The notes under the pieces were generated by a model. That model did no database searches. It worked only from the letters and a program-made list of their open reading frames with translations, and was not told the DNA's origin. From positions 22,688 to 86,687 of the IMG/VR virus record IMGVR_UViG_3300036770_006627: a stretch of DNA of 64,000 nt. The stretch is one strand, 5' to 3'. Below, in pieces: positions 14,124-64,000 of the stretch (within the stretch, counting starts at the first letter, position 1; each line of letters begins with the position of its first letter). Source of the stretch: a virus. A program made the translations under genes and the position numbers.

Positions 14124-14136
14124 CACGGAGGTTCCC

Positions 14137-15100: not shown

Positions 15101-15101
15101 G

Positions 15102-16976
15102 ATGCTTAAAACCACACTCGGCCAGATTCTCGTTAACGAAGCGCTGCCGGAAGATCTGCGCGACTACAACCGCGTCCTCACTAAGAAAGACATGGGTAAT
15201 CTCGCGACGCAGCTCGCCGAAAAGCATCCCGACAAGTATCGGGAGGTCATGAAGAACCTTCACGACGTGGCCCGCGACACGTCTTATTCGGCGGGTGGTC
15301 TTTCGTTCGGGCTGAAGGACATCAAGCAGACCGTCGCCGCCAAGGAGGCGCAGCACAAAGTGCAGATGCAGCTCCGCGGCATTCTCGCCGACCGCGCGCT
15401 CGACGAGAAAACGCGTAACCTCAAGCTGCTCCAGCTCGCCTCGACCGCGCAAAAAGACCTCGTTGAAAAGGTCTACGAAGAAGCCAAGGCAACGGACAAC
15501 CCGCTGGCTCACCAGGTCCACGGCGTTAGCCGCGGAAACAAGTTCAGCCTCAACTCACTTATCGGCGCAGACTTGCAGTACGTCGACCATAAAAACGAGC
15601 CTATTCCTATTCCCGTACTGCGCGGCTACGGCCAGGGTTTACGGCCCGTAGAGTATTTTGCGGGCGCCTTTGGCGCCCGCAAGGGCGTGCTCGACCTGAA
15701 GACGGCTACTGCGGACGCGGGTTTTTTCGGCAAGCAGCTCAGCCAAATGACGCATCGGCTGCTCGTCACCGCCGACGATGACGACGATCAGGAGCGCAAT
15801 GCCACCGCGCACGACCGCGGCTATCCCACTGACGTCGACGACATGGACAACGAAGGCGCGCTGCTCGCCCGACCCGTCGGACCATACAAGCGCAATACTG
15901 TTCTGACGCCGAAGATTTTGAAAGATATCAAAGGAATGGGCGTGCAGGATCTGCTGGTTCGCAGTCCGTTGGTCGGCGGCCCAGACGACGGCGGCGTGTA
16001 CGCCAGAGACGTCGGCTATCGCGAGAAGGGCAAAATGCCGCCTATTGGCGACTACGTTGGCATCGCCGCAGCGCAAGCTCTGTCGGAACCAGTTACCCAA
16101 GCGCAGATCTCGTCTAAACATTCCGGCGGCGTCGGTGGCGCGAGCGCTATTGGCGGCTTCAAAGCGATCAACGCGTTGGTCCAGGTTCCCAAGAAATACC
16201 CCAATGGCGCCACGCACGCCCAAGTTGACGGCCACGTCCAAGAGATCAAGGAGGCGCCCCAGGGCGGTTACTACGTCCAGGTCGGCGGCCAGGACCACTA
16301 CATCCCGGTGGACCGCGAGATCACCGTCAAAAAGGGCCAGGAGATCGAGGCAGGTGACTCGCTCACCGACGGCATGCCTAATCCGTCCGAAGTGGTGCGC
16401 CACAAGGGCATCGGCGAGGGCCGCCGGTATTTCGTTCAAGCCATGCGGCAGGTACTTCAAAACTCTAACGTCAACGGCCACCGCCGCAACATCGAGCTGC
16501 TCGCGCGCGGGCTGGTGAATCACGTCCGTATGACCGACGAGCATGGCGAATACAACCCAGACGACGTTGTGCCATATTCGATGATCGAGCGAAATTGGCA
16601 ACCCCGCGCGGGCAGTGTGACAGGCGCGCCCAAGAGCCTGCAGGGCCATTATTTGGAGCGGCCCGTGTTGCACTATTCAATTGGCACGAAAATTGGCCGT
16701 AACGTCGTTAATACGCTGCAAAAATACGGCATTAACAATATCGAGGCGCACAAGCAGCAGCCGCCTTTTCAGCCAGAAATGGTTCGCGGCATGGCGAATA
16801 TTTCGAACGACCCGGACTGGATGACGCGTATGCTCGGCTCGTACCAAGAACGCGGCCTGCTTAGCAGCGTGCATCGGGGCGCAACTAGCGACACCGCGGG
16901 CAGCAGCTTTGTGCCAGGGCTGGCCCGCGGAGAAACCTTTGGAATGACTGGCGCAACGAGCGGATGGCGCCCATAA
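15102..16976 (+). CDS. Phage RNA polymerase beta-prime, C-terminal half
   Basis: A 624-residue protein starting one base after the preceding stop. Its first residues (TTLGQILVNEALPEDL) align with the bacterial beta-prime segment TTVGRAILWMIVP, just downstream of where the first polymerase gene ends. The trigger-loop region is visible: GDYVGIAAAQALSEP from residue 316 and SSKHSGG, with His340 in the position of the bacterial trigger-loop His. Later LARGLVNHVRMTD and the C-terminal region resemble the end of beta-prime. It must assemble with the 1456-residue chain to complete the active centre. No zinc-binding cysteines are apparent. Confidence 0.9.
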   Translation: MLKTTLGQILVNEALPEDLRDYNRVLTKKDMGNLATQLAEKHPDKYREVMKNLHDVARDTSYSAGGLSFGLKDIKQTVAAKEAQHKVQMQLRGILADRALDEKTRNLKLLQLASTAQKDLVEKVYEEAKATDNPLAHQVHGVSRGNKFSLNSLIGADLQYVDHKNEPIPIPVLRGYGQGLRPVEYFAGAFGARKGVLDLKTATADAGFFGKQLSQMTHRLLVTADDDDDQERNATAHDRGYPTDVDDMDNEGALLARPVGPYKRNTVLTPKILKDIKGMGVQDLLVRSPLVGGPDDGGVYARDVGYREKGKMPPIGDYVGIAAAQALSEPVTQAQISSKHSGGVGGASAIGGFKAINALVQVPKKYPNGATHAQVDGHVQEIKEAPQGGYYVQVGGQDHYIPVDREITVKKGQEIEAGDSLTDGMPNPSEVVRHKGIGEGRRYFVQAMRQVLQNSNVNGHRRNIELLARGLVNHVRMTDEHGEYNPDDVVPYSMIERNWQPRAGSVTGAPKSLQGHYLERPVLHYSIGTKIGRNVVNTLQKYGINNIEAHKQQPPFQPEMVRGMANISNDPDWMTRMLGSYQERGLLSSVHRGATSDTAGSSFVPGLARGETFGMTGATSGWRP

Positions 16977-49427: not shown

Positions 49428-49904
49428 ATGTCCCTCAAAGATTTTGTCAACCGCAAATACGACTACCTCGCTTTTCAACCAGTCGCAGACCGCTCGGACG
49501 GACTGCAAGACATGGCGCTTTATGCCGAAAGCAGTAGCGGTAAAATTTGCACAGGTGCGCAAAAGTTGGCGCAGCGGTGGGCGCTAGAGTTCTTGACTGA
49601 ACGTGGTTCAATGCCATACAGGCCCGACCGGGGTTGTGACTTTATGACGGATGTTCGGCAGGGCCGTGTGCGAACGCAGAGTGATCTGTTGTCTAATTTT
49701 GTACTCGCCAGTCTTGAAATTACTCGTAACCTTCGCCGTGAGGAATATGAGGAAATGCCCGACGATGAACGTTTTGACCAGGCGATTTTGACAAACGCAA
49801 CTCTTCAACCCGGATATGCCGACCTGCGGGTCACGGTTGTAAGTCGCGCAGGCACAAGCAGAACTATTGTTTTTCCTATTGAAACATTGCCACAGGTGTC
49901 GTAA
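49428..49904 (+). CDS. Baseplate wedge protein, gp25/W-like
   Basis: A 158-residue protein with CACGGAGG at 49413-49420. It contains the gp25-like core: FLTERGSMPYRPDRGCDF followed by a helix (LLSNFVLASLEITRNLRREE) and strands (DLRVTVVSRAGTSRTIVFPI). gp25-like proteins form the inner baseplate ring that nucleates the sheath. The next gene, gpJ-like, overlaps by TAATG, as in the common W-J order of myoviruses. Confidence 0.68.
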   Translation: MSLKDFVNRKYDYLAFQPVADRSDGLQDMALYAESSSGKICTGAQKLAQRWALEFLTERGSMPYRPDRGCDFMTDVRQGRVRTQSDLLSNFVLASLEITRNLRREEYEEMPDDERFDQAILTNATLQPGYADLRVTVVSRAGTSRTIVFPIETLPQVS

Positions 49905-51547
49905 TGCCCCTGGAAATTGCCAAACTTGACGAGCTCGACGGCGCGACAGTCGACCGAATGTTCGCGCTGTTTACGCAGTACATGCAAGAAAAGCACCCTG
50001 ACGTCGAGCTGACTCGGGGCGTTTTTCACGACCTCGTACTTTACTTTAACGCCGCACTTAACGCCGCCGTACGGGAGAACATTGATCGCGTGTTGCAGAG
50101 TAACAGCCTGCTGCAGATCAATGCCAACCCGGTGTTGGCTGAGCCCGAGCTGGTTGACCAGGTGCTGTCGAACTTCAACCTCGTACGCAATAACGGCACT
50201 CGTTCCAAGGGCGAGGCCACCATCGTGTTCAATCTTCCTGTCAGCACAGCGATTTCGGACAATATCACGTTTGCGGCAGATGGCGTCGAGTTTCGGCCCG
50301 TGGCGTCCGTGATTGCCGTGCCGCCGGGGACAGCCGCGAGAAGTGCCGATGAATTGGAAATGATTGCTGTGGGAGACGGCACCTATTCCATAAATATTCT
50401 CATGCAGGCGCTAGAAATCGGCGTGGCCGGGAACATCCGCCGCGGAGCAACACTTGTCCCAGATTTTGTGCCCAACAACATGCGCGAGGCGTTTGCGGCG
50501 GTAGATTTTGTTTCCGGCGCCGCGCCTGAAAGCAATGCAGATTATTTGACCCGCCTTCCTTCTGGACTGGCGGCTAAAACTATTGGCGGGCGGGCAAGTT
50601 ACGCAGCTGCTATTCGCAATCAAGCGGCGTTCGCCAATATTCCGCATTTTTCCGTTTTGGGCTGCGGCGATCCGGAGCAGCAGCGTGACCAGCACGGTTT
50701 GTTTCCGGTCTCGGGCGGCGGGCGAATAGATATCTATTGCCAAACCCATTATGCCGCGCAGGAAAAAGAGCATTTGCTGACGGCCGTTTACATTGGCGAA
50801 GGAACGATCGGCACACGTTGGCAGGTCACCTTGGAGCGCGACACAGCGCCAGGGTTCTACGAGGTCCGCCGCGTCACCAAGCCGAACGACAAAACGGCAA
50901 CCGGGTACGAGATTGTCAACGATATTCGCGGCACAGATCTCAGCCAGCTCGACCACGTTCCTGATATCACAACCACGGCCGAAAGCGCGTACACGCGCTA
51001 CCAGACCGCTGTCATTCAGTTTGAGGACACCGACACGGTGTCGACTGGCTTAGTAGTAAACCAAAGTCGCGCGTACTACACAGTGACCACTGCGAGCCTG
51101 CCGCTTATCGACGACGTGCAGGATTTTCTCAACCGTCGCGACGTGCGCAGCCGGTCGGCAGATGTGCTCGTCAAAGCGGCCGTCCCTTGTTTCACGAAGA
51201 TCAATTTCACGATCCGCAAAGAAAACACAACTGCGACGATTGACACTGCTGCAATCAAGCTCGCCCTGGTTGAGGAAATTCAAAAAATCGGATTTTCTGG
51301 CCAGCTCCACAGTTCGGTCATTAACGGCGTCGCGCATAGATATCTATCGGGCCGCCAGGCCGTGAGCGCCATCGATATGTTTGGCCGCATTCGCCGTCCG
51401 GACGGGGCGATTCAGTACCTGCGAGACAGTACGTTGTTAACGATTCCTAATGATCCGGGGCGACTGGTGACTGGTCGTACGACGGTCTTTCTTGTCGGTC
51501 TAGAAGACATCGCCATTTCTGTCGAAGTCGCGGGCTTTGCCGACTAG
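49904..51547 (+). CDS. Baseplate wedge protein, gpJ/gp6-like
   Basis: A 547-residue protein whose start overlaps the gp25-like gene's stop. Features of the baseplate J family are clear: an N-terminal helical region, SGAAPESNADYLTRLPSGLA, GGRASYAAAIRNQAA, a domain with VNDIRGTDLSQLDHVPDI, and near the C-terminus IRKENTTATIDTAAIKLALV followed by a domain ending ISVEVAGFAD. It is longer than P2 gpJ, closer to gp6-size wedge proteins. It carries palindrome copies 10 and 11. It builds the baseplate wedge with the gp25-like protein. Confidence 0.75.
   Translation: MPLEIAKLDELDGATVDRMFALFTQYMQEKHPDVELTRGVFHDLVLYFNAALNAAVRENIDRVLQSNSLLQINANPVLAEPELVDQVLSNFNLVRNNGTRSKGEATIVFNLPVSTAISDNITFAADGVEFRPVASVIAVPPGTAARSADELEMIAVGDGTYSINILMQALEIGVAGNIRRGATLVPDFVPNNMREAFAAVDFVSGAAPESNADYLTRLPSGLAAKTIGGRASYAAAIRNQAAFANIPHFSVLGCGDPEQQRDQHGLFPVSGGGRIDIYCQTHYAAQEKEHLLTAVYIGEGTIGTRWQVTLERDTAPGFYEVRRVTKPNDKTATGYEIVNDIRGTDLSQLDHVPDITTTAESAYTRYQTAVIQFEDTDTVSTGLVVNQSRAYYTVTTASLPLIDDVQDFLNRRDVRSRSADVLVKAAVPCFTKINFTIRKENTTATIDTAAIKLALVEEIQKIGFSGQLHSSVINGVAHRYLSGRQAVSAIDMFGRIRRPDGAIQYLRDSTLLTIPNDPGRLVTGRTTVFLVGLEDIAISVEVAGFAD
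50728..50735. repeat. AGATATCT palindrome, copy 10 (14-bp perfect)
   Basis: CGAATAGATATCTATTGCC in the gpJ-like gene. AATAGATATCTATT at 50725-50738 is identical to the intergenic copy at 30245. It encodes RIDIY. Confidence 0.8.
51338..51345. repeat. AGATATCT palindrome, copy 11
   Basis: GCATAGATATCTATCGGG: ATAGATATCTAT at 51336-51347 is a perfect 12-mer in the same gene as copy 10, 610 bases downstream, but in a different reading frame (it encodes RYL). Confidence 0.75.
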
Positions 51548-51554
51548 GTGACGC

Positions 51555-53138
51555 ATGAAAACACCGTCTTTTGTCTATCCCGGCTCGGACCTCGACCGCG
51601 GCCGCGACATGCTGGCGCTGCTGGGCAGTTTCTGGTCGCGTACGTATAGCCGGGCAGATCAAGTCAACTCGTATGCCGAGGGCACTGCGCTGTTGGCAGC
51701 ACAGAACCATCGCAACATTCTGGAAACGGTAGCGGCGCTCAGTCGTTTCGACGTGCCACTTTATCACACGGAGTTGTGGACGCCCGTCGTGCTGCGCAAG
51801 AGTCAACGCAATAGCGTGTTAACAAGCATTGCGCGTTTCGACCGCACGACTGAGTTGTTTAACGGCGCGCTGGTTTTCGACACTGCGGCCGAGCAGCCTT
51901 TCTTTGCTTACCCGCGGCCAGAGAAACTCGTCGGAGCTGGGCAGATTTTAGATCGGCTCATTGCGCCAACATTTGCTTTGTCTGAAAACGTCGACTACGC
52001 GATCGATCAAGAGCGCAACGCAATCGTGTTCGTCGAGGACCCATTCGAACAACTCGCGCTGCTCAAGCGGGGTATTTACGAAAATGGGCAGCTTGTTGAC
52101 GAAGAGATCACGCTCTGGGCTTTCCAGGGCCAATTTGATTACGAATACGTTTACACGCAGTTCGCGTACTCCCTGGGCATCAAACTGCGCACTAGCTCGG
52201 GCGCCAAGGAGTTCATGAATGCCGTGTTTTCAGGGCTTGTTAACGGCGGCGCCACGGCCGCCGATCTTGACCTGGCCTTGGCGGCAATCACAGGGGTAGC
52301 CGTTGCCCGCGAAGACGGCGAGGTTGTCGAAGTGCTCCAGCGCGACGCGCACGGCACGCTGATTGTCACTGATAAGCACGTTTACCGGTTTCCCGAAGAC
52401 GCTACGCCCGTTGTGACGATTGGCGCGCAGCTGCGCGCGGGTGCGGCGCTGGTTGATTCTGTGGAGATCGTAGAGCTAACGAGCGGGATAGTTCCCGAGA
52501 CAATTACCGCGCTTGCCCTGGACAGCGGGTTTCTTTCTGCCTGCTTCTACGGCGATTTGGTCTTTGAGAACAAAGAGTTGCCGCTAATTGTCGACACGGC
52601 GCATCCGTCTGGTTACACCTGCGTGCGGTTCGCGCTAGGCGGCTTTCCAGCCGATGTCGCGCGCTTTTTTGACGAACTGCACGCCCGGGGGATTTCTGAA
52701 GCGCTGGTCCCAGTCGACCCGTGTGTTCCTCGCCGCCAGCGGCGCGGCACGCTTGCGCACGTGCTCGACGAGCGCACAAATCCTGACGGCGAGCCGACTG
52801 CGAGCAATCTTCCTGCCACAATCAATCCGTTGCGTTTCATTGCTGAAAATGTCCTAAGAAACAACGTTTTTCTCGTGCGCATCAAAGGCGCGGCATTGGG
52901 GCAAAATCGGCTCGGCCTGTACAATATGAGGCACCTGCGCCAGCTTATGCCGCCCCAGGCCGCCATGATCGTTATTTACGAGATTGGCGGCATCCGGGAC
53001 GCCCTAGACGGCGAGGAAAACGTGACCGACACCGCGACCTCGTTTACCGGAATGGCGCCGCAGTTTGACAGCGTGTCAGAAGAACTAGTCTACGACCGCG
53101 GGGCGACGCTGAGAGTCATTTCTGGGACGTGTCAATAA
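51555..53138 (+). CDS. Baseplate or tail-fibre attachment protein, 527 aa
   Basis: Starts seven bases after the gpJ-like stop with a weak GGTGA site. The first 100 residues (DMLALLGSFWSRTYSRADQV; VPLYHTELWTPVVLRKSQRN) recall the N-terminal region of wedge proteins that follow gpJ. The rest is mixed, with a Cys near VPVDPCVPRR and a final YEIGGIRDALDGEENVTD. Gene order after gpJ would place gpI/gp7-type wedge or fibre-connector proteins here. The function is positional inference. Confidence 0.55.
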   Translation: MKTPSFVYPGSDLDRGRDMLALLGSFWSRTYSRADQVNSYAEGTALLAAQNHRNILETVAALSRFDVPLYHTELWTPVVLRKSQRNSVLTSIARFDRTTELFNGALVFDTAAEQPFFAYPRPEKLVGAGQILDRLIAPTFALSENVDYAIDQERNAIVFVEDPFEQLALLKRGIYENGQLVDEEITLWAFQGQFDYEYVYTQFAYSLGIKLRTSSGAKEFMNAVFSGLVNGGATAADLDLALAAITGVAVAREDGEVVEVLQRDAHGTLIVTDKHVYRFPEDATPVVTIGAQLRAGAALVDSVEIVELTSGIVPETITALALDSGFLSACFYGDLVFENKELPLIVDTAHPSGYTCVRFALGGFPADVARFFDELHARGISEALVPVDPCVPRRQRRGTLAHVLDERTNPDGEPTASNLPATINPLRFIAENVLRNNVFLVRIKGAALGQNRLGLYNMRHLRQLMPPQAAMIVIYEIGGIRDALDGEENVTDTATSFTGMAPQFDSVSEELVYDRGATLRVISGTCQ

Positions 53139-53147
53139 GGAAGCATC

Positions 53148-53774
53148 ATGGCCCGCGATAAAATCGGCATTAACGGTTCGGGTGTGCGCGGCCGGGTCAC
53201 TCTTTGGCGGGTGGAACCGTCCGGGCTCATAACGCCGCTCCACACGCAACGCAACCAGATCCAGTTCTCCTGGGGCTATATCGCCGCCCGACAGATTGGT
53301 TACCGCTACCAGGCCGGGCGCCCAAGTTTTCATGTGGCAGGGATGTACATCGAGTACGAAAACGTCGCTGACCCGGAAGACCCAGTCAGCGTCTCAGCGT
53401 TCGACCGGGACCTCGGCGTCGACTACTACAACGAATTGGCCGTGAGCGCCACCCAGGACTTCCTGCGGGTCGAGCTGCGCGTCGAACCTGCCTTGAGTAT
53501 CTCGCCGGGCTACGAGGATTACTTCGTGGCAAACGAGAGCGGCAACCAGCTCACGTTCTTCGCGCAGACCTCGGGCCTATCCGGAGTTCACGGCAAAGAC
53601 TTCAGCAGCGGCGTGAACAGCAAGATCTACTCCGCCGCCCTGGTGGCTGCACCGGAGTTTAGCGACCGTACGAAGGACGTTATCTTCGCGCGCACCACGT
53701 TCGCCGTCGAAAACCAGGTCACCAAAGAAGCCTCGTCGCAGATTGGCATCACCTGGGACATCGCATTTGAATAA
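53148..53774 (+). CDS. Baseplate or fibre-associated beta-rich protein
   Basis: A TAAGGAAG site precedes ATG 53148. The 208 residues are mainly beta (GRVTLWRVEPSGLITPLHTQ; FHVAGMYIEYENVADPEDPV). Strand order and the start RNQIQFSWGYIAARQIGYRY resemble baseplate-proximal fibre or adhesin-connector domains. It ends before an intergenic dyad and the fibre block, so it may link baseplate and fibres. No family is confirmed. Confidence 0.55.
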   Translation: MARDKIGINGSGVRGRVTLWRVEPSGLITPLHTQRNQIQFSWGYIAARQIGYRYQAGRPSFHVAGMYIEYENVADPEDPVSVSAFDRDLGVDYYNELAVSATQDFLRVELRVEPALSISPGYEDYFVANESGNQLTFFAQTSGLSGVHGKDFSSGVNSKIYSAALVAAPEFSDRTKDVIFARTTFAVENQVTKEASSQIGITWDIAFE

Positions 53775-53782
53775 CAGCTGGA

Positions 53783-53800
53783 TTCACACGGATGTGTGAA
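53783..53800. promoter_or_regulatory. TTCACAC-GGAT-GTGTGAA dyad
   Basis: A perfect 7-bp inverted repeat with loop GGAT, in the 43-base gap before the fibre gene at 53818. There is no T-run, so an operator or mRNA hairpin is more likely than a terminator. It is related in sequence to the dyads at 26511 and 33159. Confidence 0.5.
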
Positions 53801-53817
53801 CTCCTGGGAGGACACGG

Positions 53818-55716
53818 ATGTCCAATAACTGGCTAAGCAATATCAAGCACGTCACACCCGGTGAGCCGGTGCAGGCAGGCGTCGTAAGCCGTCCTGACCG
53901 CGCACTGGTCGACCGGACTGAGTACCTGAAGCAGCGCCTGGACGCCGCGGCGCTGGGCCAGGCGATCTTCGACGTCGACGCCACGATCGCGCCAGACGTG
54001 CTGCCCGGCCAGCCCGTTTTCTGGAACGCCGCGACGCAGCGCTACGAGCTGGCGCTCGCAGCTGTCGACACCGACCAAGAGACGCAGACGCTCGTTCCAT
54101 TGCCGTCGAGTGACGTGCTGGGCCTGTGCTACAAAAAGAAAAACGCGACGCTCGCCGACATCGTACTCCACGGCGTCGTGCGGCTGCCCGAGATCACCAA
54201 CGCCGTATCGGCGCCTGTGGCCGCAGGTCGATATTACTTGTCGTCGGCGGAGGCAGGAAAACTCGTTAAGCAACGCCCGCCGGTTACGGTCAGCGTCTGC
54301 TACGTTCAGGGCGTCAAAGATAACTGCGCCGACGATCCTTGGGTCGTCGTGATGCCGCAGATGCGGGACTTTCTTGAAGACCACATTCACTACCGCTTTG
54401 AGCTTGTGGCGCTTCCGGCCGGAGATCACGATCCCGACGTTGCCGCAACTGCGGGAGTTCACACGGTCGACAATGCCGACGCCACTCGAGAAGGCTGGCT
54501 GCCTGCCGACCACGAAGTTTTTCAGGGACGTGCGCCTGTCGGCGCGAAGTTTGGCTACAACTTTTCGCAACATGCGGCTCTTTCGCTTGTATGGCCGCCG
54601 ATGCCGCTGCAGGCTGTGGCCATGCTTTGGGACAAAGGCGTAAACAACGTTGGTGCCACAGAAATTCCACTGGGCAGCGACGGTCTGTGCATCTGCGACG
54701 TTAACGGCATCTGGTGGATGAGCGACTGCTACGGCGACGTGCCGTGGCCCGCCGATCTCGACACGCTTTCAGTCGAGTCATCTGCGTCGCTCGCCGCCTG
54801 CCCCCGCGAAGAACGTATGCGGGTGATCGTCGTTTATTTGCGGATGCTTTTCGGCAACGATCGGTCTGTGGTTACAAGCCTCAAGCCCGCCGTCGACAGT
54901 CCAATTACTATTGCGAACTGCGACGGCACATTGGCCACGCGCGAGCAGCCGCTTACGGGCGACTTGGAACTGGGGCTTAATCTTGCGCTAGTCGACGACC
55001 CGACCGAGGTTGTGGGCAGCCGCGTTTACAAGCAAATCACCTCAGACTTCAAGTTTCGCAAAGGCTGGATTGCCGAGGGTCTTCGCGTAGGCGCCGGGCC
55101 GATCGTGCTTGCTGGAACGCGCACTCGAGGGCTTACGGCCGCTGAAAAAACTGCGCTCGACCTGCCTTCAAACGACACCTCTTTACTCTACCAGGGCTTG
55201 GTCACAGTTTCATACGACGACCAGCTTGTGGAAAGGGAAATTGCGCCGCAGATCATTCGGCTCTCCGATACAGTTGAGCGCCTTTATCTCGACATCCCGT
55301 ACCTGGGCTTTCCGCAAGGACAGGATTCGCTGGTGCGCGTGCGCCTCAACGTCCCCAGCGCCAACCTCGGTAATAACCTAGAGATGCGCGTACGCGCGCA
55401 GATTTTCGGTCGCGCTACAGCCGTTCTTCCTGTGCTCTCAATGTCCTATCGCCGCCTGCCCCGCCCGGCCGGAACAATTACGTCGGGCATGCCAGCCCTC
55501 CCCGGTGTCGCGGAAGAAACAGAGATTGCCTTCGACGTGCCCGCCAGTTCGCTGGCGATTGACACACCAATTGAGATTTCTAGCGAGGCCTTCGTAATCG
55601 CCGAAGGCGATACGATCCTGGTGACGCTCAGTCGCACAGGCAGTGCGGACAGCTATGCAGGCGAAGTCGGCCTGTTGCGACTGTCAGGTGTAATCACGGT
55701 CCCCGCCACCGAGTGA
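53818..55716 (+). CDS. Fibre or baseplate structural protein, 632 aa
   Basis: A GGGAGGA site precedes ATG 53818. The N-terminal region (VTPGEPVQAGVVSRPDRALV; LPGQPVFWNAATQRYELALA) resembles tail-fibre attachment modules that begin with short beta repeats. A central region has HIHYRFELVALPAGDHDPD. The C-terminal 150 residues form strands typical of a beta-sandwich (RVRLNVPSANLGNNLEMRVR). Ten or so cysteines are scattered. It opens the fibre gene block and could be the fibre base. The assignment is tentative. Confidence 0.55.
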   Translation: MSNNWLSNIKHVTPGEPVQAGVVSRPDRALVDRTEYLKQRLDAAALGQAIFDVDATIAPDVLPGQPVFWNAATQRYELALAAVDTDQETQTLVPLPSSDVLGLCYKKKNATLADIVLHGVVRLPEITNAVSAPVAAGRYYLSSAEAGKLVKQRPPVTVSVCYVQGVKDNCADDPWVVVMPQMRDFLEDHIHYRFELVALPAGDHDPDVAATAGVHTVDNADATREGWLPADHEVFQGRAPVGAKFGYNFSQHAALSLVWPPMPLQAVAMLWDKGVNNVGATEIPLGSDGLCICDVNGIWWMSDCYGDVPWPADLDTLSVESSASLAACPREERMRVIVVYLRMLFGNDRSVVTSLKPAVDSPITIANCDGTLATREQPLTGDLELGLNLALVDDPTEVVGSRVYKQITSDFKFRKGWIAEGLRVGAGPIVLAGTRTRGLTAAEKTALDLPSNDTSLLYQGLVTVSYDDQLVEREIAPQIIRLSDTVERLYLDIPYLGFPQGQDSLVRVRLNVPSANLGNNLEMRVRAQIFGRATAVLPVLSMSYRRLPRPAGTITSGMPALPGVAEETEIAFDVPASSLAIDTPIEISSEAFVIAEGDTILVTLSRTGSADSYAGEVGLLRLSGVITVPATE

Positions 55717-55729
55717 GGAGGACCGGATA

Positions 55730-56689
55730 ATGCCTTTAGGCCAGTGGAATCTACAGTGGCTTAACCACAACTCGCAGCGATCTTATCCGCTGGCCGAGCG
55801 CGCCACCAAAACAGACACGACAGACACGATTCGCCTGCCGGACAGCTTTCTCGTCGCGCTCTATTTGCCGGTGCATGTCGACCTGAACATCGAGCCAGCC
55901 AAATTTTATCTCAAGAGTTTGCTGATTTCGGCGACTGGTTACAACATCACAATCGGTTACGACAGCGGCGAAACCAATACGCTCAACAATCCAGACGTAG
56001 CGGCGGCGAACATCGCCAAAACCGCTTATCAGCCAAATCGGGCTTTCGCATTAGCGGGAGTCGACAATTTCACCGATTCAATCGGCGAAGTTGTCATTGG
56101 CCGACTGGACGAAATCGACACGTTGCCGCCGGGGTTGTATTACTTCACCCCGGCGGGCGGCCTGCTCGAGACTGATCCTATACGGCCCATGATCCGAGGT
56201 GTAACTCGGTTACGGGTATCAAACAGCGGCGAATTGAGCGATTACGTGTACGGCGACGTGACGCTGGTTGCTGGGACTAACATGCGGCTCGTCTTAGAAA
56301 GTGGCGGTGACGCCGACCCCCGGATCGTGTTCAACGCCATCTCTGGCTTGAACCTAAACGTCGACTGCGTTTGCGAGACGCCCGATACCGCCGAATGTAT
56401 TCGGTGCATTAACGGCGTGTGTTCTGGCGACGGTACTTACGTTTTCAGCGGCGGCGAATGCATATCAATCAGTCCGGCCACGGGCGGCCTGCTGTTTAAC
56501 GATTTCTGCGCGCAGCCGTGTTGCGGTTGCGAAGAACTGGACGCCTTGACGCAACAGATTGACCGGTTTGGAGATGGCGTAAACACGCTGCAGAACTTCG
56601 TCACCCGGCTTGGATCCGAGGTGTCGCAAATGTCCTTTGTTGTCCTCGGTAGCCGCCTCGGTGATTCCGGCTGCAACACCTGTGGCTAG
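55730..56689 (+). CDS. Cys-rich fibre-like paralogue 1
   Basis: A GAGGAGGA site precedes ATG 55730. The 319 residues start with the N-terminal signature shared by the next four genes (NSQRSYPLAERAT). Then come a beta domain, a Cys-dense segment (CVCETPDTAECIRCINGVCS; CAQPCCGCEEL) and a short C-terminal coiled coil (LDALTQQIDRFGDGVNTLQN), which could trimerise. The signature and gene block suggest receptor-binding fibre components. Clustered Cys may bind metal or form disulfides outside the cell. Confidence 0.6.
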   Translation: MPLGQWNLQWLNHNSQRSYPLAERATKTDTTDTIRLPDSFLVALYLPVHVDLNIEPAKFYLKSLLISATGYNITIGYDSGETNTLNNPDVAAANIAKTAYQPNRAFALAGVDNFTDSIGEVVIGRLDEIDTLPPGLYYFTPAGGLLETDPIRPMIRGVTRLRVSNSGELSDYVYGDVTLVAGTNMRLVLESGGDADPRIVFNAISGLNLNVDCVCETPDTAECIRCINGVCSGDGTYVFSGGECISISPATGGLLFNDFCAQPCCGCEELDALTQQIDRFGDGVNTLQNFVTRLGSEVSQMSFVVLGSRLGDSGCNTCG

Positions 56690-56697
56690 GAGCCGCC

Positions 56698-58224
56698 ATG
56701 AGCTGTGCAGATCCGACCATCACGCCAGGCGGCCGCGGAGGTATCGGCGTCGTTCAACCCCAAAGCGGTTTGGACTACCCGCTCGTCGCGCCGTCGGACG
56801 ACGTTAGATATCTATTGGCCGATTTTTATCTGGCCTACGACGACCCGGGTTTTTATCGCGCAGCCGAGTCGATCCGCAAACACCCTTTGCGCATCAAATG
56901 GCTCTACGGCGTTGGCTGTGAGCCAGCGATAGCACCAGTCTGGGCGCCCGCGCCGATTCACGCGGCTGACATCTTGATTGTCGACGCGGACGAAAACACG
57001 GTGTTTGATTCTACGCAGCCGGTTCCCGTAGGTGGTGACCCAGAATACCGCCGGTTTATCAAGCGCAGCTGGGGCGCCGATTACGACGTTTACGAGTGGA
57101 TCGGCAACGACGCTGTTTGCAGGCTGGTCATTCACAAGACCTGGCCGCCCGCCTTTGAAATTGCGCCGAAAGATTGGCCGATACACCTGGCGCCCATAAA
57201 CGCTGTGCTCGACGAACGCGCGGTTTACAAAATGCCGCGCCGCTTGCGGTCGCTCACCGTTGTGTCAGAAGACGCAGAAATAGGCACCGTGACCCGCACA
57301 GGCGCGACGTTTGTTGCCGGAAACAACATGATTCTCGAAAGCGCTGACGCAACTGTGCGCGGTCGACGGCAAAACACAAACATCACCTTGACAGCCGAAC
57401 CTGGCGCAGGCGCAGGCAAGTATGAAGATTGCCCTGATGACCCGGCGCAGCCAATTTATCGGTTGAATGGCGCCACGCCCAATGAATACGGCGACCTTGT
57501 AATAGCTGGCCCTGACTGTATTTGGATTCGACAACCAACCACGCTTAACATAAGCGGCCGCGCCGTACCGGTGTTTACCGGCGGGTCGGCGACGCTGGCG
57601 ATCGGCAGTAACTGCCCGCCCTGTTGTGATTGCCCGGATTATGTAGACACCGCGCTCTATATGAATCAGGTCGCGAGAAAGTATTCGAGCGTCGGCGCGC
57701 GCACGCATGACATCAAGTTGTTGCACGAGAGCAATATCGATCGTTGGATAGAGCAGCGCGAATGCCGTTTACAAAAACCATTGCGCGTGCTTTTGACGCC
57801 GCAAAACTGCCCGTTGCTCGACGTAGTCATTATGTACTGCAATCAGTGCCATCAGTGCGCTGAAAATGGCGCGCTAGCGGTCACCTTCAGTACGTTTCCG
57901 GCGGGCGCGACGGCAGTGATTGAGTGCGGATACACGTTTCTGAGCGCCCCAGGCCACAGCAACGTCGAGTATGCGCTACAGGGGACATATCCGACCTTTA
58001 ACGCGCCGTTACCGCCGGTAGATCTTGGCAGCTCTGCGTATGTCAAATTTCGCCTGCGTTTCAACCCGGCGAACTATCCTTACTCGGTGACGGCTACATT
58101 GACTGGCGCGACTAACGCCAGCCCATTTTTACCCGGTTGCGAACCCATAGCCCTCGCGGCGCCTGTTACGACTTCTGCGGCTCTTAACTGTAACACTGAC
58201 GGCGGCACGGTCCGGAGCTGCTAA
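56698..58224 (+). CDS. Cys-rich fibre-like paralogue 2
   Basis: A TAGGAG site precedes ATG 56698. The 508 residues carry a variant of the shared N-terminal signature (SGLDYPLVAPSDDVRYLLAD) and the mid-protein motif LNGATPNEYGDLVI, similar to motifs in the following genes. A Cys-rich centre follows (CPPCCDCPDY; CNQCHQCAENG), and a C-terminal beta-sandwich-like region (VKFRLRFNPANYPYSVTATL). Palindrome copy 12 lies near its 5' end. Probably an adhesin or fibre subunit. Confidence 0.6.
   Translation: MSCADPTITPGGRGGIGVVQPQSGLDYPLVAPSDDVRYLLADFYLAYDDPGFYRAAESIRKHPLRIKWLYGVGCEPAIAPVWAPAPIHAADILIVDADENTVFDSTQPVPVGGDPEYRRFIKRSWGADYDVYEWIGNDAVCRLVIHKTWPPAFEIAPKDWPIHLAPINAVLDERAVYKMPRRLRSLTVVSEDAEIGTVTRTGATFVAGNNMILESADATVRGRRQNTNITLTAEPGAGAGKYEDCPDDPAQPIYRLNGATPNEYGDLVIAGPDCIWIRQPTTLNISGRAVPVFTGGSATLAIGSNCPPCCDCPDYVDTALYMNQVARKYSSVGARTHDIKLLHESNIDRWIEQRECRLQKPLRVLLTPQNCPLLDVVIMYCNQCHQCAENGALAVTFSTFPAGATAVIECGYTFLSAPGHSNVEYALQGTYPTFNAPLPPVDLGSSAYVKFRLRFNPANYPYSVTATLTGATNASPFLPGCEPIALAAPVTTSAALNCNTDGGTVRSC
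56806..56813. repeat. AGATATCT palindrome, copy 12
   Basis: CGTTAGATATCTATTGGCC in the gene at 56698, frame encoding RYL. Its right half ATCTATTGG equals that of copies 6 and 8. It is the last copy seen in the window. Confidence 0.75.
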
Positions 58225-58227
58225 CAC

Positions 58228-59874
58228 ATGCCCATTCGCAACCAAAACTGGTACGACCTGCAAGCCTCACGCCGTTATCCGCTGGATGAGCGCAGCACTG
58301 GCTTGGACGATTCAGGTCAGTTCATTCACGACGACATTCTCGTCGATTGCCATATCCGTTTTCCAGCAACGCTCGGGCAGTATCTGTTTGTTCAGGGAAT
58401 TACTGTAAGTCCCAACATTGTCACCGTTGTTTTCGGCGTTGCGACGGATTTAAACGACACGGCGCCAGTTAGCGTTGCTGCCGTCTCGTTGCCGCGCAAC
58501 GCACCACAAAACGTCAACCACGCTGTCGTGCCGCTAGCAGATGGCGTGGCAGGTTGGATTGTATTTGGGCCAGGACTCGACGAAGAGTTCGTCGGCCGTT
58601 ACAGCACGCCGCTGCAGACACTTGTAGCGCAGCGGTGCGCGCGGCCCTATCGCCCGTTACCAATTTCGTCACTTGGCAAGCTTAACGTGGCGACCAGTCT
58701 TACCGGAATCGTAACGCTTTCGGCGCAAAACCCAGTCACGGCGACTTTCATCCCTAAAACAGCCGCCAACGCTTTGACAGTAGCAAGCACACCGGTCGAC
58801 TCTATTTTATTTCAATTAGAGGGCGAGACGCAGGACTTCAACCCGCTTAAAGATTTTCTGGGCGCTTGCGGACAAAGACCCGAAAGCGGCACGTGTCCGC
58901 GACCCCCTATTGCGACAATCAATGGCATAAGTCCGGACTGCAACGGCAACATTAATCTGGTTTTTGCGGGAGTCGACGCGGCGCTTTTCGAAAACTGCGG
59001 CGGCGTAGCGGTTACAAGCGATACAGGCCTTGCGGATGCCTGCGCTGCCGGTGACGAAAGACGGAGGCCTTCGCGCCAAGACGAGTGCACTCCCGGTAGC
59101 GAAAGCGTCGACGACATTATTTGGAGCGACTTGCCCACCGAGCTATTTGTTGAAGAACCGGACGTCGTATCTTCTGAAAGCGTAGACGAGGATGCCGTGC
59201 TCGCCGAGTGCGCCGTCATGCCGCTGTGCCGCGATTTCAATGCGGGGACCGCGCCTGACTTCGCGGTTCGCGAAGGCCTATTTGTTTTTGAGTCTGTGTC
59301 GGCGCCAGAGATTTGCTCGCCGCCAGGGTCTTTAGCGGCGACACCCGAAAACGAGCTGACGAGTCATTATGTGTACGCGGCGGCAAACATTGTCGGGCGC
59401 AACATGGCGCTCTTTAAAAACTGCGCCAGTGACTGGTCGCTAAACAAAAGAATAACTGCAGAACTGCAAATCACAGCGGGCGGACTGCAACGTAATGGCG
59501 GCGTGTTGTTTAACTACATTCGCGGAAACAGCAGTCTCGGAGCGCCCACGCGTTACCTAGTAGCTACACTTGACGCCAACGCTGCAAAGCTGCGGTTACT
59601 TCGATTTAACGGCTCAAACTTTGTGACCGAATACAGCGCGCCGTTTTCAGTAGTCGTAGGCGCGTGGTATCGCGTTTCTGCTACGCCGGTAGCAGTGCAG
59701 TCCGAGGGCGCGGTTCTGGTAACTGTTACGGCAGAAGCGGTAGACGAAAGTGTCTCGCCAGTATCGTTCTCGTTACTGATCTCGCAGTACGGCGACCTAA
59801 CAGGGCTGGCCGGGCTCTTCAGCGCCGCGTCGTACACGCGTTTCAACAAGTTCACAATTGAGAACACGATATGA
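58228..59874 (+). CDS. Fibre-like paralogue 3 with C-terminal lectin-like domain
   Basis: A 548-residue protein; no good ribosome site, start three bases after the previous stop. The N-terminus repeats the family signature (LQASRRYPLDERST) and the middle has INGISPDCNGNINLVF, a motif typical of tail-fibre beta repeats. A Cys-rich acidic linker leads to a C-terminal domain of about 190 residues with strands such as RITAELQITAGGLQRNGGVL and RYLVATLDANAAKLRLLRF. That is the look of a concanavalin/LamG-type sugar-binding fold, suggesting glycan recognition. Its stop overlaps the next start as ATGA. Confidence 0.62.
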   Translation: MPIRNQNWYDLQASRRYPLDERSTGLDDSGQFIHDDILVDCHIRFPATLGQYLFVQGITVSPNIVTVVFGVATDLNDTAPVSVAAVSLPRNAPQNVNHAVVPLADGVAGWIVFGPGLDEEFVGRYSTPLQTLVAQRCARPYRPLPISSLGKLNVATSLTGIVTLSAQNPVTATFIPKTAANALTVASTPVDSILFQLEGETQDFNPLKDFLGACGQRPESGTCPRPPIATINGISPDCNGNINLVFAGVDAALFENCGGVAVTSDTGLADACAAGDERRRPSRQDECTPGSESVDDIIWSDLPTELFVEEPDVVSSESVDEDAVLAECAVMPLCRDFNAGTAPDFAVREGLFVFESVSAPEICSPPGSLAATPENELTSHYVYAAANIVGRNMALFKNCASDWSLNKRITAELQITAGGLQRNGGVLFNYIRGNSSLGAPTRYLVATLDANAAKLRLLRFNGSNFVTEYSAPFSVVVGAWYRVSATPVAVQSEGAVLVTVTAEAVDESVSPVSFSLLISQYGDLTGLAGLFSAASYTRFNKFTIENTI

Positions 59875-60653
59875 GCGGCGCGCGTATCCTTTATCCCCAG
59901 TTTCGGGACGAACAAGCTGATTCGCGTTATCCGTTTTCGGATCGGGCGACTCTCTTGTCGGCCGAACGACGTCTGGACATTGGTCGAGACACTTTTTTCG
60001 ACGCGACACTTTACACCATTGGCGGCGAACGCCAGGCGTACATTTCGGCCATTTCCGTGACGGCGCAACTCGTCACAATCAGCGTGGGCGACGCCGCCGA
60101 TCGCAATCGCGCTACAGCGAGCTTCAACCCGCTCGCGCCGCCCGCTGACGGCGCTCTAGCGCTTTCTGACGCATTCGGTCGTCCGGCGGGCGTGCTTCTC
60201 GCCGCGCCGTTTGGGTTGGCCCGGTTTTCCGGCTGGCCAACAGAAACACACACGTTTTCAGCAACAGCGACAGAGTTCGTTTCTAGCGTTGTAATTCCAG
60301 CCAAGGAACCGGGCGTGCGGGCGCTTAAAACCATCGACGGGCCGTTACTTACCGGCGACGTGTGGCTGGTTGGCGGCCGTGGCGTGGTGCTTCGCAAAGA
60401 AGACGCCACCACAATTCGGATAGATATCATTGGCGAGCCGCTCTTTAGCCGTTACGTCTGCGACGAGCTGAACCGCTTTGTGCCGCGGACGTTTCTCCAA
60501 ACGTTTACAGTGGATGGCGTGCCTTGCGGACCAGACGAGTACGGTAATTTCAATATCACTGCAGCCAATCACGGGGCCGTAGATACCGTTCTGCGCGTTT
60601 ACACGCAGGATGGCGCTATAAAAATAGACACGGTCGGTAAAAAGGTGGTGTGA
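59871..60653 (+). CDS. Fibre-like paralogue 4
   Basis: ATG 59871 overlaps the preceding TGA (ATGA). The 260 residues open with the shared signature (EQADSRYPFSDRATLL) and DTFFDATLYTIGGERQAYIS. Near the C-terminus is VDGVPCGPDEYGNFNITAAN, the second family motif. It is shorter than its paralogues and lacks an added lectin-like or repeat domain. It probably belongs to the same fibre assembly. Confidence 0.6.
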   Translation: MSGARILYPQFRDEQADSRYPFSDRATLLSAERRLDIGRDTFFDATLYTIGGERQAYISAISVTAQLVTISVGDAADRNRATASFNPLAPPADGALALSDAFGRPAGVLLAAPFGLARFSGWPTETHTFSATATEFVSSVVIPAKEPGVRALKTIDGPLLTGDVWLVGGRGVVLRKEDATTIRIDIIGEPLFSRYVCDELNRFVPRTFLQTFTVDGVPCGPDEYGNFNITAANHGAVDTVLRVYTQDGAIKIDTVGKKVV

Positions 60654-60654
60654 A

Positions 60655-61593
60655 ATGCCGCGTCCTGGGTTTTACAACGATAACGAATATCGCGCATATC
60701 CGTTTGTCTACAAATCCGACTATTTCGGCACGCTATTGCCGCTGTCGGCTGTCGTGGATTGCGGGATTATCATGGGTTTAGATAGCGGCTTTGAGCAAGG
60801 ACAACACGCAGTGTGGCTTGCAGAGATTAGCCGCGCAGACGGCGTTGTGCAGTTTGTATTCGCAACCGACGCGCCTGGTGCTGTGAACGTCCCGTTGCGT
60901 TTTGAGTGTCCTGAAACCGACGCCGAGTGGTCGACCGCATTCGGTGAATCCGCGGCTGCCGACACTGTTAACCCGGCCTGCAACCCTGAACCAATTTGGG
61001 ACGGATTTTTGACGCCAGGCCCGCTTGCCGAGCTGGTCGCGCTGCTTAGCGAAAATGGCGACACCCTGACTTATCCAGAAAAAGAACGGACGCTCGAGCC
61101 CGGCCGTGTTCAGAGTCTGGTTAAAAGCTACGCGCGATCGATCAATTTGGGAAACCTCCCGCGTGTTTACGCATTGCCACCCGAAGAGTGCCAAGAACCA
61201 GGCGAGGCTGAGACGGATATCGTAGTGAACGCCGAGTGCATGCAGGGCGCGCTACGTTTCAAAGAGGGCGCGAACTGCCGCATCAGGCAGACCGACCGAC
61301 TAAACGATATTCGCGTCGGCGCAGAAAAAGGCGCGGGAGACGTTACGAACAGCGAACTGTGCGAGCACGGCGGCGAAGTGCCGCTCTACGACGGAGAGCC
61401 GTTCGATGAGGTAACTGGGTTCTACAGCGGCGGCCCGGCGTGCAATCAAACGATTTCCGCCATTAACGGCATTGGTGGCGCTAATGTCAATATCGTCGGC
61501 GGTACAGGCATTACTGTAACCACCGACGGCGCCACGAAAACGGTAACCATAGCGGTGGCTCAAAACAATCTCGTCGGCAATTGCGGAACGTAA
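60655..61593 (+). CDS. Fibre-like paralogue 5
   Basis: A GGTGG site lies close to ATG 60655, one base after the previous stop. The 312 residues begin with a divergent signature (YNDNEYRAYPFVYKSDYFGT), then a beta/helical body with about ten Cys. The C-terminal segment SAINGIGGANVNIVGGTGIT is a clear tail-fibre-type strand motif. It directly precedes the giant repeat protein, which may be the distal part of the same fibre. Confidence 0.62.
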   Translation: MPRPGFYNDNEYRAYPFVYKSDYFGTLLPLSAVVDCGIIMGLDSGFEQGQHAVWLAEISRADGVVQFVFATDAPGAVNVPLRFECPETDAEWSTAFGESAAADTVNPACNPEPIWDGFLTPGPLAELVALLSENGDTLTYPEKERTLEPGRVQSLVKSYARSINLGNLPRVYALPPEECQEPGEAETDIVVNAECMQGALRFKEGANCRIRQTDRLNDIRVGAEKGAGDVTNSELCEHGGEVPLYDGEPFDEVTGFYSGGPACNQTISAINGIGGANVNIVGGTGITVTTDGATKTVTIAVAQNNLVGNCGT

Positions 61594-61596
61594 ACC

Positions 61597-64000
61597 ATGA
61601 GCACGCCGCTTTTTGATCCAGACAAATGCAACGTCGACTCTGTGCCGAGTCTCGACTTTGATTTTGTTTCTGAATGCTCGATCAAAGAACCGCCGCCGCC
61701 GATTTTCGATTGCCCGTTGCCGGTCGTAGTGCGCGACCCTCCTCCGCCGCTGTGCCCGGAGTTTGAAACACGCGTCGTCGTAGACGTGCGCCCGCCCAAT
61801 TCGTGCTCTGAATCAAGCGAACCGAGCGTAGCTGTAGTCACCAAAGTCAGCGAAGAGCCGTGCAGGTTCTTTATTGACCTCGACATCAAAGTGCCGCTGC
61901 CGCCAGTACCTTGTCCGACTATTTTTGGCGGCGACGTCTCTATTACAACTGGCTACGACGACTGTATCGAGGGCGGACCAACAGGCGTTATTCTTGTCAC
62001 CAAACTTCCCGCGTCTTGCAGTAACGGCGAAGAAACAAACTGCAAGTTTGAGATCGATCTCGATCTCACGATTCCTATTCCGCGACCACCGTGCCCGGTA
62101 ATTGAAGGCGGCAGTTTGACGGTGAACGCGGATTACGCCGACTGCATTGAGCCGCGAAATTCGCTTTGGGTAACTGCGGTCGATCCGCCGCCTAACTGCG
62201 AAGGCGGCGATGGCGAATGTCGTTTCGCCATCAATCTCGATTTAGACATTCCAATTCCGCGCCCGCCGTGCCCTGTAATTGAAGCGGGCGTTATCAGTGT
62301 TACCGCGGATTACGAAGACTGCATCGCGCCGCGAAATTCGCTTTGGATTACAGCTACCGAACCTTCATTGGGTTGCGAAGGCAGTGACGGCGACGGCGAA
62401 TGTCGCTTCGCAATTAATCTCGATCTTGATATTCCGATACCTCGGCCGCCATGCCCTGTAATTGAAGCGGGCGTAGTAAACGTCAACGCTGGCTACGACG
62501 ACTGCATCGAACCGCGAAATTCACTCTGGATTACAACCACTGAAACACCGCCTGATTGCAACAGCGACGGCAGCACCGGCGACGGCGAATGTCGTTTTGC
62601 CATCAATCTTGATCTCAATATTCCGATCCCGCGGCCGCCGTGTCCCGTGATTGAGGCGGGCGTAGTCAGCGTCACCACTGACTACGAAGATTGCATCGAA
62701 CCGCGAAATTCGCTTTGGATTACAACCACTGAAACATCGCCCGATTGCGCCAGCGATGGCAGCAACGGCGATGGCGAATGTCGTTTCGCCATCAATCTCG
62801 ATTTAGACATTCCAATTCCGCGCCCGCCGTGCCCTGTGATTGAGGCGGGCGTAGTCAGTGTCAACGTCGATTACGACGATTGCATCGAACCGCGAAATTC
62901 ACTCTGGATTACAACCACTGAAACACCGCCTGATTGCGACAGCGATGGCGGCAACGGAGATGGCGAGTGTCGTTTCGCCATCAATCTGGAGTTAGATATT
63001 CCGGTTCCGCGACCGCCGTGCCCTGAAATAAAAGCAGGCGTGGTGGAGATTGTAACGGAATATCAAGATTGCCTCAGTGGCGCAACCGGCGCGTTACGCG
63101 TTACGAAAACGCCTGTCCCAGCCGATTGCGATGATCCCGACAAAGAACTGTGTGAATTCACAATCGACCTTGACCTGCCCATTCCAATTCCGCGGCCAGT
63201 CTGTACGACCTTGACGGCGACTGGCGTTATTGAACTGGTCACAGGCCCGCCGTACATAAACGTAATCGTTACCGATAACAGCACTGAAGGGGATTGCGAC
63301 AATCCGCCAACGTGCGAACTAGAACTCGATCTCGACATTGGCGTTCCTGCACCGCCGTGCCCAGAGATTTCTGGCACGCTCAATGTCTATCGCACGCCTG
63401 AGCCTGAACCAACCGGCGTTCTGACCATTACACCAACCACTGGACCTAGTGGTCAGTGTATTTTCGACATTGATCTCGACATTGGTGTGCCCGCGCCATT
63501 ATGTCCAGAGATTTCTGGCAACCTGAGTGTTTATCAAAATCCAACGCCAACCGGCGTTCTGACCATTACACCAACCACTGGACCTAGTGGTCAGTGTATT
63601 TTCGACATTGATCTCGACATTGGCGTGCCTGCGCCTTTATGTCCAGAGATCTCTGGCACGCTCAATGTCTATCGCACGCCTGAGCCTGAACCAACCGGCG
63701 TTCTGACCATTACACCGACCACTGGACCTAGTGGTCAGTGTATTTTCGACATTGATCTCGACATTGGCGTTCCTGCACCGCCGTGCCCAGAGATTTCTGG
63801 CAACCTGAGTGTTTATCAGAATCCAACGCCAACCGGCGTTCTGACCATTACACCAACCACTGGACCCAGTGGTCAGTGTATTTTCGATATCGACTTAGAT
63901 ATTGGTGTGCCCGCGCCATTATGTCCAGAGATTTCTGGCAACCTGAGTGTTTATCAAAATCCAACGCCAACCGGCGTTCTGACCATTACACCAACCACTG
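61597..64000 (+). CDS. Giant Cys/Asp/Pro-rich repeat protein (3' end beyond window)
   Basis: The frame is open from ATG 61597 to the right edge: at least 801 residues, no stop. It is built from repeats around a core C-x-F-x-[IL]-[DN]-L-D-L-D-I-P-I-P-R-P-P-C-P. Type 1 units (59-63 residues) run from about 62.1 to 63.0 kb and contain EPRNSLWITTTET and DDCIE. Type 2 units (46-48 residues) run from about 63.35 kb and contain TPTTGPSGQCIFDIDLDIG and EISGNLSVYQNPTPTG. Each unit has several Cys and alternating acidic strands, as in a long extracellular beta-rod. It may be a long tail fibre or surface adhesin. No family is recognised; repeat number may vary. Confidence 0.7.
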   Translation, partial: MSTPLFDPDKCNVDSVPSLDFDFVSECSIKEPPPPIFDCPLPVVVRDPPPPLCPEFETRVVVDVRPPNSCSESSEPSVAVVTKVSEEPCRFFIDLDIKVPLPPVPCPTIFGGDVSITTGYDDCIEGGPTGVILVTKLPASCSNGEETNCKFEIDLDLTIPIPRPPCPVIEGGSLTVNADYADCIEPRNSLWVTAVDPPPNCEGGDGECRFAINLDLDIPIPRPPCPVIEAGVISVTADYEDCIAPRNSLWITATEPSLGCEGSDGDGECRFAINLDLDIPIPRPPCPVIEAGVVNVNAGYDDCIEPRNSLWITTTETPPDCNSDGSTGDGECRFAINLDLNIPIPRPPCPVIEAGVVSVTTDYEDCIEPRNSLWITTTETSPDCASDGSNGDGECRFAINLDLDIPIPRPPCPVIEAGVVSVNVDYDDCIEPRNSLWITTTETPPDCDSDGGNGDGECRFAINLELDIPVPRPPCPEIKAGVVEIVTEYQDCLSGATGALRVTKTPVPADCDDPDKELCEFTIDLDLPIPIPRPVCTTLTATGVIELVTGPPYINVIVTDNSTEGDCDNPPTCELELDLDIGVPAPPCPEISGTLNVYRTPEPEPTGVLTITPTTGPSGQCIFDIDLDIGVPAPLCPEISGNLSVYQNPTPTGVLTITPTTGPSGQCIFDIDLDIGVPAPLCPEISGTLNVYRTPEPEPTGVLTITPTTGPSGQCIFDIDLDIGVPAPPCPEISGNLSVYQNPTPTGVLTITPTTGPSGQCIFDIDLDIGVPAPLCPEISGNLSVYQNPTPTGVLTITPTT
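62098..63030 (+). repeat. Type 1 tandem repeats (about 177-189 bp)
   Basis: The marker ATTGA[AG]GCGGGCG or a close variant occurs near 62101, 62278, 62461, 62650, 62839 and 63028. Spacings are 177, 183, 189, 189 and 189 bases, all multiples of three. DNA identity between the last copies is high, including synonymous positions, pointing to recent duplication. Confidence 0.8.
63411..64000 (+). repeat. Type 2 tandem repeats (138/144 bp)
   Basis: AACCGGCGTT begins at 63411, 63549, 63693, 63831 and 63969, giving spacings of 138, 144, 138 and 138 bases (46 or 48 codons). The segments between are nearly identical. The extra six bases come from an inserted Glu-Pro-type dipeptide in alternate units (PEPEPTG versus NPTPTG). 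The array continues beyond the window. Confidence 0.85.

Follow-up and report, generated by a model that had tools for sequence, protein, structure and literature searches.

We analyzed five consecutive genes in a 64,000-nucleotide stretch of viral DNA (hereafter "the window"; bases 22688–86687 of the 86.7-kb IMG/VR virus record IMGVR_UViG_3300036770_006627), named here B (55730), C (56698), D (58228), E (59871), and F (60655), with start positions in the window given in parentheses. Profile comparisons indicate that B–F are true paralogues, and related records carry them in one fixed order with a single copy of each. We judge it probable, if far from assured, that they encode the obligate parts of a hetero-assembly located at the rim of the baseplate or at the tail tip, in which most members would act as scaffold and D would provide a glycan-binding tip. 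In this study, the lineage is known from metagenome-derived records only (large phages, ~200 kb), including a 204-kb record (L002) in which the nine proteins compared are 100% identical to those of the window.

Single-sequence BLASTP matches between the five proteins were marginal (B–C 0.002, D–E 0.003, B–D 0.005). With profiles of 7–11 rows per family, nine of the ten possible pairs scored above every control (best control 24.3), the exception being Dn–F (19.8). Profiles built from 33 contigs placed all ten pairs (26.1–125.5) above all 60 controls (top 22.4), and the same held for profiles with 51–55 rows (43.3–156.6; 85 controls), for which the highest control, F against its own reversal, reached 40.1 and the next 24.7. 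The initial annotation, which had regarded these genes as tandem fibre paralogues, named a lack of significant profile similarity as the outcome that would speak against this; significant similarity was found in all ten pairs. In HMMER comparisons across nine records of 198–205 kb, the B profile matched C at E < 1e-4 in eight, the C profile matched B in seven, and the D profile matched B or E in five. When protein halves were compared separately, the N-terminal half of C scored at control level against the other members (15.6–18.8) and its back half at 40.7–95.5; the D–F and E–F matches were carried by the N-terminal halves (57.5 and 38.1), the scores of their back halves (23.3 and 20.5) not being significant. 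Phylogenetic trees covering B, D, E, and F, with 122 sequences drawn from 31 contigs, recovered each of these four members as monophyletic, with support of 0.94–1.0, both with and without a pre-merged alignment, which indicates that the duplications predate the sampled radiation. On this sequence evidence the paralogy is confirmed as ancient, and the proposal of duplication and diversification is borne out by both profiles and monophyly.

The initial annotation had positioned the genes correctly (all five starts and the cluster end at 61593 agree), and the homology and YP motif that it reported were recovered, although not the motifs in their literal form. YP[LF] occurs within the first 40 residues of all five cluster proteins versus none of the 45 other open reading frames (ORFs) of the window taken as genes, and [YF]P[LFI] was found near the start of 33 B, 29 C, 33 D, 33 E, and 32 F proteins across the 33 contigs. 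The longer form [RD]-x-YP is literal in B, D, and F, but C and E have their charged residue one place nearer. Likewise, a relaxed version of the ING...GN motif is present in B, C, D, and E but not in F, and also in 4 of the 45 other ORFs; a still looser pattern matched F in just 8 of the 33 contigs.

All five genes lie on the + strand as ATG-initiated ORFs of 319, 508, 548, 260, and 312 amino acids (aa), with 8 bp between B and C, 3 bp between C and D, a 4-bp overlap of D and E, and 1 bp between E and F. An N-terminal domain of ~140 residues followed by an "NG..G" module is common to B, D, E, and F, and C has in common with them only this second module and a lone YP motif. B (55730..56689; 12 cysteines), the most conserved member and the hub of the profile matches, comprises the N-terminal domain with its YPL motif (55784..55792; residues 19–21, Y19 and P20 being invariant over 33 rows), a back half holding the module common to C, D, E, and F (56198..56515; residues 157–262), and a predicted long C-terminal helix (56528..56656; residues 267–309; low confidence as a monomer). 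C (56698..58224; 18 cysteines) consists of a YP-bearing N-terminal half, the shared module (57268..57705; about residues 191–336, the B–C match stopping at C residue 336), and a cysteine-rich remainder, with a length of 443–1929 aa across relatives. D (58228..59874) carries the N-terminal domain common to B, E, and F (58228..58653; residues 1–142), the shared module, a linker, and a predicted concanavalin-like tip (59215..59871; residues 330–548). E (59871..60653) is the core alone, with no further body, and F (60655..61593) combines the N-terminal domain with the shared module, in which the ING motif takes the variant form INGIGGANVNI.

Conservation of this arrangement was assessed in IMG/VR, using D, B, E, F, I, and A as queries (I and A being genes upstream of B), and 33 representative contigs were kept after leaving out near-duplicates (L008, L014, L026, L039, L040, L067, L076), repeat loci of one contig, L056 (E and F at the contig edge), and L082 (a chimera, see below). 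All 33 contigs display B-C-D-E-F in this order with one copy each, and L120, added later, also holds the complete set. Within the nine records of 198–205 kb, each of the five profiles marked a single gene (split into two pieces for C in one record and for F in two), and no sixth member was found; the remaining matches fell on sister genes of the cassette, apart from an 887-aa ORF (E profile, E 1.1e-4), which by eye looks unrelated, and a stretch of 34 codons antisense within one D gene (D profile). Protein A led to a further 26 distant loci (26–44% identical), of which 24 had all five genes: 21 inside the locus, including L261, where the fetched stretch ends within F, and 3 with F further along the record (L236, L257, and L258, the last with E cut in the locus). 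Omitting L242, L244, and L259, which repeat other distant loci, the count is 21 of 23. The other distant loci were L252, cut after D by the contig end, and L255 (noted at 9977–12697), a 195-kb record for which no B or F profile match was obtained in the whole record; there, I, H, and G are kept and A is shortened to 336 aa, as could result from natural module replacement, rearrangement, or an assembly fault. Overall, 234 of 258 fetched loci contained a contiguous B-C-D-E-F, and a second copy of any member was detected in none; in 22 of the remaining 24 the fetched stretch or the contig runs out, the other two being L082 and L255.

Four of the five proteins are enriched in cysteine (B 3.8%, C 3.5%, F 2.9%, D 2.2%) versus 0.73% in the 45 other genes, with E at 0.8%. 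Alignment columns with at least 90% cysteine numbered 11 in B, 14 in C, 8 in D, 5 in F, and 2 in E.

AlphaFold models were obtained for B and D as monomers. The B model is confident over residues ~21–150 and weak beyond, including the helix at 267–309 (mean predicted local distance difference test score, pLDDT, 65.2). For D (mean 77.1), ten-residue blocks reach pLDDT 87–97 over residues 21–140, followed by a weak middle and a confident concanavalin-like domain at residues 330–548. The two N-terminal domains begin with a helix (residues 3–14 in B, 3–12 in D) and have strands in similar places (B 41–49, 59–66, 70–77, 89–96; D 38–46, 52–60, 64–72, 81–89). Foldseek returned no match for the B N-terminal domain at E 0.001 in PDB or BFVD, and a C2 domain, the best row of the structural comparison (Z 5.4, root-mean-square deviation (rmsd) 2.6, 83 residues aligned), was too low for use as a fold assignment. 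For the D end, VIA-align ranked CBM66 first (Z 19.6, rmsd 2.1, 159 aligned), and the central fibre of phage Douge also aligned (Z 16.3, rmsd 2.8, 173 aligned); Foldseek placed mouse galactocerebrosidase first (3.2e-07) and CBM66 fourth (3.7e-06), both of them concanavalin-like. D residues 330–548 are thus predicted to form a concanavalin-like jelly roll that may bind glycans, and the D end is, on this prediction, most likely the host-binding part. Accordingly, the term "receptor-binding subunits" used in the initial annotation appears apt for D, through its predicted end, but not for B, which has a predicted helix, or E, which has no body.

Next, we evaluated where variation sits. Mean identity to the window was highest for B (63.1%), which is the most conserved of the nine tail genes, followed by the upstream genes G (60.4), A (57.9), I (57.8), and H (56.5), and by E (53.8), F (46.8), C (44.8), and D (43.5); these counts omit ORFs running off the locus, so that I, H, G, and A are represented by 23, 29, 32, and 32 contigs. 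Lengths in the 33 contigs are 313–320 aa for B, 253–290 for E, 299–420 for F, 494–816 for C (up to 1929 in the distant set), and 294–1228 for D. The fastest-changing part measured is the D end, with a median pair identity of 0.36 versus 0.57 for the D core, compared to 0.63 for B, 0.52 for E, 0.47 for F, 0.42 for C, and 0.55–0.59 for I, H, A, and G; L009 and L010, which have poorly aligning bodies, are counted in the tip values, and L012 and L013, whose D has no tip, are not. Divergence of all B–F segments tracks that of gene H (Spearman 0.59–0.80), which speaks for vertical descent. The tip profile was detected in the D of 19 of the 26 distant loci.

Individual phages display departures from this pattern. 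D of L009 (10001–13687; 1228 aa) includes an FGE-sulfatase domain (PF03781, E 1.4e-15), with long poly-Ser stretches and then an end alignable to the D tip of the window, and D of L010 carries another body. In L041 (1953–7328) and L042 (2031–7328), H is 1791 and 1765 aa long versus the usual ~530 and D has no tip; perhaps the binding domain moved to H in these phages, although Pfam searches returned nothing in the L041 H protein. In L257, a Laminin_G_3 domain is found in C (E 6.2e-13) and in an extra gene between B and C (13905–15743; E 4.4e-23), an apparent lectin gain within the cassette. In L235, the long C protein has a PHROG minor tail protein match (E 5e-48). A mini-module of ~40 residues (LYLAFDTNNVYRWDGSNY-like) was also noted in D of 12 of the 33 contigs, near residue 308 (L023, L024, L025, L027, and others), as well as in F of L006 and C of L065.

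The window's B–F yielded no Pfam match up to E 1 and, among PHROGs, one chance-level row only (B, E 0.11); PDB profile searches found nothing at E 1 for B or D and nothing for A, and none of 31 D proteins matched Pfam at E 0.01. INPHARED isolates gave no match with B, D, A, and I of the window, A of L254 and L253, B of L248, or 24 kb of DNA. Genome contigs had no match when scanned with D and a single one with B, on a contig of a Synechococcaceae metagenome-assembled genome (L082 1–4927), which holds the end of A, B, C, the first ~115 residues of D, and then urea-transport-like genes (named by eye). The join falls inside D and we take this contig to be a chimeric assembly, a weak host lead that was set aside. 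Literature searches returned no description of this five-gene set, and we claim nothing beyond that.

Taken together, a fixed set with one predicted sugar-binding end suggests that B–F are parts of one structure, not interchangeable host-binding proteins. We propose that an ancient tandem duplication of a fibre or adaptor protein gave rise to five non-interchangeable subunits of one adsorption structure in a large contractile-tailed phage. The N-terminal domain of B, D, E, and F would probably attach the protein either to the baseplate or to another member of the set, a guess since no known fold matched it convincingly, and the second module probably trimerises, with which the low monomer confidence agrees while proving nothing. 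The ends would then have diverged into the long helix of B, the cysteine-rich body of C, the concanavalin-like domain of D, nothing in E, and loop inserts in F, such that B, C, E, and F would serve as scaffold and adaptors and D as host-binding tip. Conserved cysteines may form disulfides that hold the assembly together. Under this model, host range would change through a swap of the body of D or C.

The principle is ordinary and the detail uncharted. As a working model, the closest analogue would be T4 gp10-gp11-gp12, described in PMC3004832 as products of sequential genes with a proposed common fold and a position at the baseplate rim, of which gp12, the short tail fibre, bears a receptor-binding domain. 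B–F are likewise sequential paralogous genes with diversified bodies, and a CBM66-like domain of binding type is predicted for D; the set differs in being five, in four of them being cysteine-rich, in the concanavalin-like end, and in the absence of a fold match for B (low-confidence model). Carbohydrate-binding-type domains at a tail tip are also known from mycobacteriophage Douge, where, according to PMC13033339, the tip region of central fibre gp20 binds mycobacterial glycans, but this is a long-tailed mycobacterial phage with another baseplate, and the alignment concerns the D end only. For cysteine content, the comparison is with the contractile-tailed Agrobacterium phage Milano, for which PMC10811340 reports 2.1% cysteine in structural proteins and disulfide links in tail, baseplate, and receptor-binding proteins, next to 2.2–3.8% in B, C, D, and F; disulfides are demonstrated in Milano and suspected for B–F, and the likeness is drawn on composition. 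A more specific reading, that B–F form a fixed, cysteine-cross-linked hetero-pentad acting as a single adhesion ring across the ~200-kb lineage, with a lectin on one chain, sister chains that occasionally gain lectin modules, and no described counterpart, is tentative and on balance doubtful.

Several observations weigh against the hetero-assembly as proposed. E is not cysteine-rich, and the N-terminal half of C is not demonstrably homologous to the other members by profile. The models cover monomers of B and D, and C or F may also carry binding domains; the back half and helix of B have low pLDDT, and the N-terminal domain is without a convincing known fold among the structures searched. The baseplate assignment of gene I is weak, and no isolate relative was found in INPHARED. 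The tip profile was not detected in D of L248, L251, L252, L253, L254, and L260, and L255, without B or F, indicates that the set can be absent. Finally, conservation is lower in C, D, E, and F than in I, H, G, and A, a pattern that exposed binding proteins would also show.

An alternative is a branched multi-receptor apparatus, in which each paralogue would carry its own receptor-binding domain and together provide a broad host range. In phage CBA120, TSP1-4 (tailspike proteins) are encoded by the neighbouring ORFs 210–213, form one branched baseplate complex, and each recognise their own lipopolysaccharide, as stated in PMC8825819, which also mentions that relatives encode up to four tailspikes. 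Gp10-like XD domains also mark this type; the fold lists obtained for the B N-terminal domain, which are not exhaustive, had the C2 domain as their best row. B–F are likewise neighbouring paralogues with common parts and different bodies, D has a predicted lectin-like tip, C and F vary in length, Laminin_G_3 domains and a minor tail protein match occur in C or beside it in L257 and L235, and the structure models cover B and D. We nonetheless regard this as rather unlikely: a recognised binding-type domain is found in D only, E consists of the core alone and B terminates in a predicted helix, order and copy number are invariant, unlike in the relatives of CBA120, and conservation is higher in B than in I, H, G, and A. 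Slightly less weight goes to the idea that B–F are whiskers or decorations of the tail or capsid, and are not located at the baseplate rim. For this speak the absence of a homolog of known location in the databases searched and downstream genes that are Ser- or Cys-rich or collagen-like, but B–F belong to one conserved block behind a sheath gene and a possible baseplate gene, which makes such a role unlikely as well.

The switchable host range suggested in the initial annotation, if taken to arise by phase variation or by generation of diversity inside the cluster, appears highly improbable. In its favor, the FGE-sulfatase fold seen in D of L009 occurs in variable proteins of retroelement systems. 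However, RVT_1, a reverse transcriptase domain, was found in none of 10 records (some of them fragments) versus 3 of 14 control genomes, and positions 53800–61600 contain two imperfect inverted repeats only, of 18 and 23 nt, no search having been aimed at an invertase. Together with the fixed order, the single copies, and the conservation of B, this leaves a switchable array, and the broad host range suggested with it, without support. Neighbouring tail-fibre paralogues are easily taken for host-range arrays, and comparison of distant phages, as conducted here, separates an ancient division of labour within one machine from alternative receptor binders. The hetero-assembly that we favor also directs attention to the D end, and the C body, as the place to seek host specificity. 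For a lineage without an annotated relative in these searches, the analysis also provides profiles of five families that keep a fixed order and share conserved cysteines within each family.

The wider locus has the gene order I-H-G-A-B-C-D-E-F, with RNA polymerase genes and a sheath gene upstream and a repeat protein, R, downstream. The sheath gene (33259–36093) is long (944 aa), and its PHROG tail sheath match (E 4.8e-08) is confined to the C-terminal part. Gene I (49904..51547, + strand; 547 aa) is perhaps a baseplate-wedge (gp47-like) gene, with a weak PDB profile match to 9ki1_H "Baseplate protein gp47" (E 0.086). H (51555..53138; 527 aa) and G (53148..53774; 208 aa), both on the + strand, are conserved neighbours, as is A (53818..55716, + strand; 632 aa), which lies immediately upstream of B and displayed no profile similarity to B–F.

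Further upstream, a 1456-aa ORF (9753–14123) matches Rpb2 domains and Rpb1 domains 1–2, i.e., a beta-beta' fusion, and a second RNA polymerase gene (15102–16976) holds Rpb1 domain 5. Since PMC12619734 describes "moraphages" as being without RNA polymerase genes, assignment of this lineage to them was ruled out. Single ORFs of Salmonella phage Arash and Vibrio phage D69 cover 97–98% of the 1456-aa ORF at 31–33% identity; neither phage had a B-profile match, and literature searches found no paper naming Arash and nothing on fused phage RNA polymerases.

Downstream of F, gene R (61597..64000, + strand) consists of Pro/Cys-rich repeats and runs past the window end, its full length being 962 aa in the matching 204-kb record. 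Beyond this point, L050 (11727–19180) encodes, after R (962 aa), two further proteins without a Pfam match: one of 667 aa, rich in Ser and with Cys-rich repeats, and one of 830 aa, rich in Cys and by eye EGF-like in appearance. On the reverse strand of L154, behind F, collagen-like GPTG repeats end an R-like protein and are also found in the next gene.

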